DNA of 60,499 bases, from the NCBI GenBank assembly GCA_027021445.1, contig JALUUH010000032.1, forward strand, positions 1 through 60,499. The letters are read 5' to 3'. The stretch comes from Gammaproteobacteria bacterium (GTDB lineage: Bacteria > Pseudomonadota > Gammaproteobacteria > S012-40). The notes beneath the pieces are model-generated. The model did no database searches and was not told the origin of the DNA. It saw nothing but the letters and a program-made list of their open reading frames with translations. This document shows, piece after piece, positions 2,379 through 5,016 of this stretch. Both the position numbers and the translations under genes were made by a program. The first letter of the stretch is position 1. Each line of letters starts with the position of its first letter.

Positions 2379-2428
2379 GGAAACAGAAATACAGAAATAG
2401 CAGAAATAGGAAATAGGGGACAGACCAC
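2379..2428. repeat. Left inverted-repeat arm 'ggaaataggggacagaccac' with degraded tandem copies upstream
   Basis: Reverse complement of the gtggtctgtcccctcttttcc units at 2658-2760. Confidence 0.8.
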
Positions 2429-2474
2429 GATTAGATGTTATATTGGGGTTTTTCAGTATTGCGGAAGATGTTTA

Positions 2475-2654
2475 ATGCCGCGCAGGGCACGTATCTCAAT
2501 ACCAGAAATAACCTGGCATATAATCCAACGCGAGAATAATCGCTCGGTTTGCTTTTTCACGGAGGAAGATGATTTATTGTATTTAGATCATCTTATAAGA
2601 TCAAACGGATGTGATATTCACGCCTATGTTTTGATGAACAATCATGTGCATTAA
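2475..2654 (+). pseudogene. Truncated REP-associated tyrosine transposase (RAYT, Y1/HUH superfamily), N-terminal 59 aa
   Basis: MPRRARISIPEITWHIIQRENNRSVCFFTEEDDLLYLDHLIRSNGCDIHAYVLMNNHVH*; typical RAYT N-terminus ending at the HxH motif; just below the ORF-track size cutoff. Confidence 0.85.
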
Positions 2655-2760
2655 TAGTGGTCTGTCCCCTCTTTTCCTTCTGTGTGCATTAATAGTGGTC
2701 TGTCCCCTCTTTTCTGTCCCCTCTTTTCCTGCTGCCTCTTTTCCTGTCCCCTCTTTTCCG
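2645..2760. repeat. Right-side repeats: a 32-bp perfect direct repeat (2645-2676, 2683-2714) followed by shorter tgtcccctcttttcc units
   Basis: Direct reading. Confidence 0.9.
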
Positions 2761-3706: not shown

Positions 3707-3835
3707 GGGTCGGACTCGATATAAGCTGATAATTATATCGAGTCCGACCCCATTTGTTACGGACCCCATTTGTTACGCGACCCCATTTGTTACGACCCCA
3801 TTTGTTATTTGTTCTCATTTGTTACTTGCATATTC
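3707..3835. repeat. 17-bp perfect inverted repeat gggtcggactcgatata/tatatcgagtccgaccc (10-nt loop) followed by ~4 tandem gaccccatttgttac units
   Basis: Direct reading; arms 3707-3723 and 3734-3750. Confidence 0.93.
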
Positions 3836-4695: not shown

Positions 4696-5016
4696 GGACT
4701 TCCTCAACAAATGGTTCGAGGGAATATTACTGTTTTGGCTCGACGAATACTTTTCCATTCCTGCTATAGAGTAATTCGCTTGTATCACACAAAAGAGGGG
4801 CGGGCCTTGTTCCGTGCATTTTTCGCTGCTCGCCGGAAAATTCTATTCGGAGAGGTCTGACCATAAGATCGAGTGTAAACCGAAATTAGACACGAAACAA
4901 AAAGACTTCGTGCAGGTTGGGATAATAATTATCTTATAAAAGTAATTTCAGGGATGTCTGCATAGAGCGATTGCCCTGCCAATATACATGACCTAGAACC
5001 CACCTATACCGACTCG

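Follow-up and report, generated by a model that had tools for sequence, protein, structure and literature searches.

A MITE-like derivative of a TIRYT element, probably dispersed in truncated form, in a gammaproteobacterial genome

TIRYT elements, or TIRtrons, are an already known family (Di Nocera et al. 2013, PMC3733652; Quentin et al. 2018, PMC6006769). In the sections of these two papers that deal with them, the terminal inverted repeats (TIRs) are given the consensus GGGGWSAS (PMC3733652) and are said to occur also as solitary copies, in dimers or in groups (PMC3733652, PMC6006769), while the elements fall largely in TnpA-Y1 subclass 2.1 (PMC6006769). A literature search for the repeat string of the present element and for truncated RAYT derivatives returned nothing relevant beyond these two papers on TIRYTs. 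How do RAYT and TIRYT enzymes multiply their repeats? The locus described below bears on that question.

The window is the whole stretch of DNA that was analysed, 60,499 nucleotides of contig JALUUH010000032.1. In it, inverted copies of AGGGGACAGACCAC enclose the N-terminus, 59 residues long, of an HUH tyrosine transposase. The left TIR (AGGGGACAGACCACGATTA, 2415-2433, plus strand), located by repeat search and by the comparable place of such a repeat ahead of the start in intact relatives, is followed by a 5' leader (2434-2474, plus strand) that can be aligned with the copies on contigs C138, C79 and C20 of the same genome and with the full-length relative L054. Then come the 5' 59 codons of the transposase gene (2475-2654, plus strand; MPRRARISIP...HAYVLMNNHVH*), which read MPRRARISIPEITWHIIQRENNRSVCFFTEEDDLLYLDHLIRSNGCDIHAYVLMNNHVH and stop at a TAA supplied by the right TIR. 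The right terminal repeat thus follows codon 59 directly: NHVH is kept, and everything after the HxH is missing, that is, the middle and the 3' part of the gene with the catalytic Tyr region, whose motif is YIELNP in the relatives. The first copy of the right TIR (TTAATAGTGGTCTGTCCCCT..., 2652-2674, minus strand) was placed by repeat searches and by the ends of the relatives. The two inverted arms, 2411-2433 and 2652-2674, are 23 nt long and 91% complementary; a 14-bp core, GTGGTCTGTCCCCT, recurs without a mismatch at 2415-2428 (minus), 2657-2670 (plus) and 2695-2708 (plus). When up to 3 mismatches are allowed, TGGTCTGTCCCCTCTTTTCC matches 5 times in the window, and 100 shuffles gave 0.00. A repeat family search showed that the 32-bp junction/right-TIR unit at 2645-2676, in which the stop codon (2652-2654) lies, is perfectly duplicated at 2683-2714 (minus strand). 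As DNA, the element is predicted by folding to form a long hairpin closed by the TIRs (z=-4.8). No target-site duplication was seen for the window element. At the junction (2650-2652, plus strand) the two sides overlap by 3 bp, ATT: the gene reads GTGC-ATT-TG in L054 (GTGCATTTG), and the right end reads GA-ATT-AATA in C216, at the 3' end of the gene (GAATTAATA). Such an overlap would suit a microhomology deletion. The truncated frame ending at the HxH, the inverted flanks and the duplicated unit with the stop codon had all been described in a first-pass annotation of this DNA, and they are borne out by the sequence and by the relatives.

What did the element look like when it was intact? In most of the intact close relatives GGGGACAGACCAC stands 57-95 bp before the start codon (in L030 the left repeat is at -158), and GTGGTCTGTCCCC stands 4-14 bp past its stop; the gene has 228-239 codons. 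L055, L056, L028, L058, L060, L061 and L064 are intact examples with both repeats, and in them GTGGTCTGTCCCC comes 6-14 bp past the stop. Since the gene of the relatives is bracketed by the same inverted repeats, the right repeat in the window is the element's native right end. The idea that a repeat had replaced the rest of the gene therefore gives way to an internal deletion. The full-length L055 matches Pfam Y1_Tnp at 2.2e-13, with NHVH and YIELNP present, and scores 79.8 bits against the NCBIfam model of REP-associated tyrosine transposases, just below the cut-off of 80; among solved chains TnpAREP (4er8) is its sole match, at E=0.00075. The stub alone stays under the curated cut-offs, with E=0.0029 for Y1_Tnp and E=0.026 for REP_Tyr_transpos, but relatives of the peptide occur in many proteobacterial genomes, and the closest of them span all 59 residues at 58-74% identity. 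GGGGACAG, a repeat of the GGGGWSAS type, flanks both sides in the window and in the relatives, as the long TIRs of TIRYTs do. Because the NHVH and YIELNP motifs and the protein length of L055, together with these terminal repeats, match TIRYT elements, the window element is, judged by sequence, a derivative of the TIRYT type (TIRtron, TnpA-Y1 subclass 2.1) and not a REP or REPIN; by the same comparison it consists of the left end, the first quarter of its own transposase gene and the right end.

The genome of the window (G000), whose assembly is 67% complete, was searched with L054 with the repeat ends added. Besides the window copy (C32) there are at least six left-end copies, on C20, C79, C138, C68 and C67 and, cut by the contig end, on C23. 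Right-end or internal (3') remnants were found on C216, C53 and C20 (1530-1796), and C23 and C216 break in or at the element. No intact gene of the cognate subfamily was found in the 67% of the genome that is assembled; there are two more distant full-length RAYTs, on C128 and C82, but no GGGGACAGACCAC lies within 300 bp of them. How are the left-end copies related? In the alignment C32 and C138 have in common a 10-nt deletion, several substitutions and the exit from the gene after CATGTGCATT, and they group in the tree with support 95 / 0.96. C79 and C23 have in common the junction ATGTGTGTTAATAG and an A at the third position of the start codon (which in C79 reads ATA), with support 96 / 0.97 (bootstrap values 95 and 96). 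The first pair thus has the left side of the cut in common and the second pair the whole junction. BLAST homology between the sister loci goes no further than the element borders, which rules out segmental duplication as the source of the copies. Common cut points with private mutations at unrelated sites, and homology limited to the element, show that forms already truncated were the ones that moved. The genome-wide copy check proposed in the first-pass annotation thus turned out in favour of a mobile derivative.

Similar derivatives exist in other genomes. In G033, a complete genome from a different family, one intact element is accompanied by three derivatives that all have the junction 124|769; they have diagnostic bases in common, show 97, 82 and 75% identity to the intact copy, and resemble one another only across the element, about 155 bp. 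Here as in G000 (C32/C138, C79/C23) dispersed copies have an internal deletion in common, which is a feature of a MITE, as are the retention of the inverted ends and the loss of the coding capacity for transposase in the window element. In G384 three copies have a breakpoint near element nt 167. Two of them, L216 and L218 (contig C79 of that genome, 320-492 and 1212-1378), consist of about 167 nt of a TIRYT left end and then a common unrelated tail, forming a dispersed chimeric non-autonomous family in which 309 bp are alike at 84%; another G384 copy is a 99|623 derivative that is present in G385 too. Pseudomonas composti and P. guguanensis have recent left-end stubs of 32, 63, 197, 204 and 218 nt whose identity to the intact copy is 98-100%, each with another TIR within a few bases after it; the sequence around the Pseudomonas elements looked variable. 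At P. composti L074, L189 and L190 and P. guguanensis L187, what follows the stub is either a REPIN-like hairpin made from the same TIR (AACAATAGGGGACAGACCACGATTAATTTCTTCGTAAATCGTGGTCTGTCCCCTATTG) or a TIR of a second type, GGGGACAGATTTATTT. The breakpoints thus lie at about codon 19 in G033, about nt 167 in G384 and codons 48-53 in Pseudomonas. Because they differ among lineages, the exact end at the HxH is incidental, and a function for truncation at this motif was rejected.

Could the 59-aa peptide be a small protein that has been kept, such as a piece of the transposase that binds DNA or acts as a dominant negative? The frame is open in the window, where a 1-nt insertion compensates for the 10-nt deletion that is shared with C138. 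In the sister copies, however, the start codon is lost (C79, and C23 with the same final A), the frame is shifted (C138, C20) or the gene breaks off after about 18 codons (C68); in most copies the peptide is no longer encoded. Selection on it was rejected for this reason; the peptide has no evident function, its maintenance is very unlikely, and we consider a retained protein extremely improbable. An assembly artefact of the MAG contig is just as hard to believe: the assembly is fragmented and two contigs break inside or at the element, but the same architecture stands on several G000 contigs and in independently assembled genomes. Ordinary decay, in which each truncated copy would be a separate full-length insertion that lost its 3' part in place, deserves somewhat more attention. 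The 3' and internal remnants on C216 and C20, the broken frames of most copies and the differing breakpoints of C20, C68 and C67 are all as it would have them. It is nevertheless unlikely, for it has to meet private deletions and junctions that are common to copies at unrelated sites, and three copies with one junction in G033.

A further explanation concerns the one-sidedness of the truncation. When likely sister copies among the matches of the G000, Pseudomonas, G033 and G384 searches were grouped by hand, there were about 16 independent left-anchored events against 2 right-anchored ones (p=0.0013; 23:2 by copies), and since the searches used whole elements, the bias does not come from the query. 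The ends also carry arrays of partial repeats. Read from outside inward, each array unit gives a locus-specific word first and then 0-25 nt of the TIR, and 34 of the 34 TIR fragments in arrays have the locus word before them. The words (GGAAATA, AACAATA, AAGAAATA, GAAAAGA and others) were taken from the arrays themselves, and what gives the pattern its strength is full agreement within loci together with difference between loci. In the window, sequence and array analysis place the left end array immediately outside the left TIR (2380-2414, plus strand); it is made up of partial repeats of GAAATA(G), with 4 units, including one at the TIR, that reach 0, 1, 2 and 13 nt into the TIR; the right end array (2662-2760, minus strand) has 5 units, each with GAAAAGA first, that reach 2-25 nt. 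The left bias and the arrays are not explained by plain deletion and give a hint, though unproven, of copying that starts at an anchor and ends prematurely. A nick would be made at a fixed point just outside the TIR, copying would end early, and the product would be joined to another TIR. Truncated stubs and locus-specific end arrays might then both come from one abortive replicative HUH reaction with a fixed start and an end anywhere, the stubs (28-240+ nt) being its long and the short arrays its short products; the TIR that trails each stub in P. composti and P. guguanensis is in line with this. On the other side, the stubs of G000 and G033 pass into the native inverted right TIR with overlaps of 2-3 bp, like plain deletion, replication slippage can also yield arrays, and the events were grouped by hand. 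We therefore hold start-anchored copying to be a tentative explanation, better placed than ordinary decay and still rather doubtful.

Some other repeats and stubs in the window may be put on record. At 3707-3830 there is a second, different TIR element with a perfect 18-bp inverted repeat, GGGTCGGACTCGATATAA/TTATATCGAGTCCGACCC, after which an array of CATTTGTTAC units has the same word-anchored build; its GAGTCCGACCCC occurs a single time in the assembled genome. A 45-aa ORF at 4727-4864 (minus strand) starts with MVRPLRIEFSGE, is reminiscent of the N-terminus of another RAYT group and breaks off after about 11 residues; profile searches gave no family match for it, and it is possibly another left-anchored stub. 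A short tandem repeat at about 1288-1425 gives EHTNIRTYEHTNIRTY in one frame and lies between two genes, one that we take to be quinone-oxidoreductase-like and one that we take to be LysR-like.

The preferred reading, which we hold to be probable, is that the feature in the window is a deletion derivative of a TIRYT, about 260 bp long, non-autonomous and MITE-like, which was dispersed as the truncated form. An internal deletion that arose at the short microhomology ATT would have joined the right TIR to codon 59, and a full-length TIRYT would have acted in trans on both inverted ends, moving them by single-strand HUH chemistry; the G000 copies may thus have been mobilised by the parent transposase. 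Some points speak against this reading. The assembled G000 sequence offers no intact cognate TIRYT for the step in trans; the slight difference between the junctions of C32 and C79/C23 calls for two similar deletions, or for one with conversion; and in C138 (L005) the stub ends exactly at the common CATGTGCATT junction, where the right TIR is lost. The window element is now probably immobile and decaying, because the 67%-complete genome yielded no intact cognate TIRYT, and to this extent the other option of the first-pass annotation, a decayed RAYT, also holds. Why do such remnants matter? Derivatives that share a genome with an intact gene, as in G033, are defined natural minimal substrates, and one-sided truncation with start-anchored arrays is a testable footprint of the reaction. 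There is also a caution for annotation, that a short ORF resembling a RAYT N-terminus can be element debris and not a protein.

How, then, does the element compare with known systems? In the literature searched, with most subscription journals outside it, neither TIRYT derivatives that keep the 5' end nor word-anchored arrays were found. The likeness to TIRYTs (PMC3733652, PMC6006769) lies, on the side of the full-length relatives, in the NHVH, W-E and YIELNP motifs and a length of about 230-240 aa, and, there and in the window, in long TIRs with GGGGWSAS, here GGGGACAG; the difference is that the window copy, though it has NHVH, lacks all that follows the HxH, the C-terminal HTH-like domain of TIRYTs included, and that the TIRYT sections of the two papers cover TIR repeats and not multi-copy derivatives keeping the 5' end or locus-word arrays. 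Like REPINs and REPs with their RAYTs (PMC3116915, PMC8049555), it is a short piece of non-autonomous DNA, and its inverted ends correspond to those around a related gene for an HUH tyrosine transposase. In contrast to them, it carries transposase coding sequence, has about 7 left-end copies and not hundreds, and does not end in GTAG-tagged REP palindromes. Membership among REPINs was rejected on ends of the GGGGACAGACCAC type without the GTAG tag and on the 18 core matches, with at most one mismatch, in the genome; of the earlier proposal of a REPIN-like non-autonomous derivative, the derivative that carries 5' sequence from its own transposase gene stands through the dispersed sister copies, and the REPIN likeness falls with the TIRYT-type TIRs. 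The E. coli TnpAREP (PDB 4er8) differs in belonging to subclass 2.2, in being bound to REPs and in being shorter (a 165-aa chain). With IS-derived MITEs the element shares the kept inverted ends, the internally deleted transposase gene and several dispersed copies, but its parent is a Y1 HUH element, and its left side keeps far more than its right.
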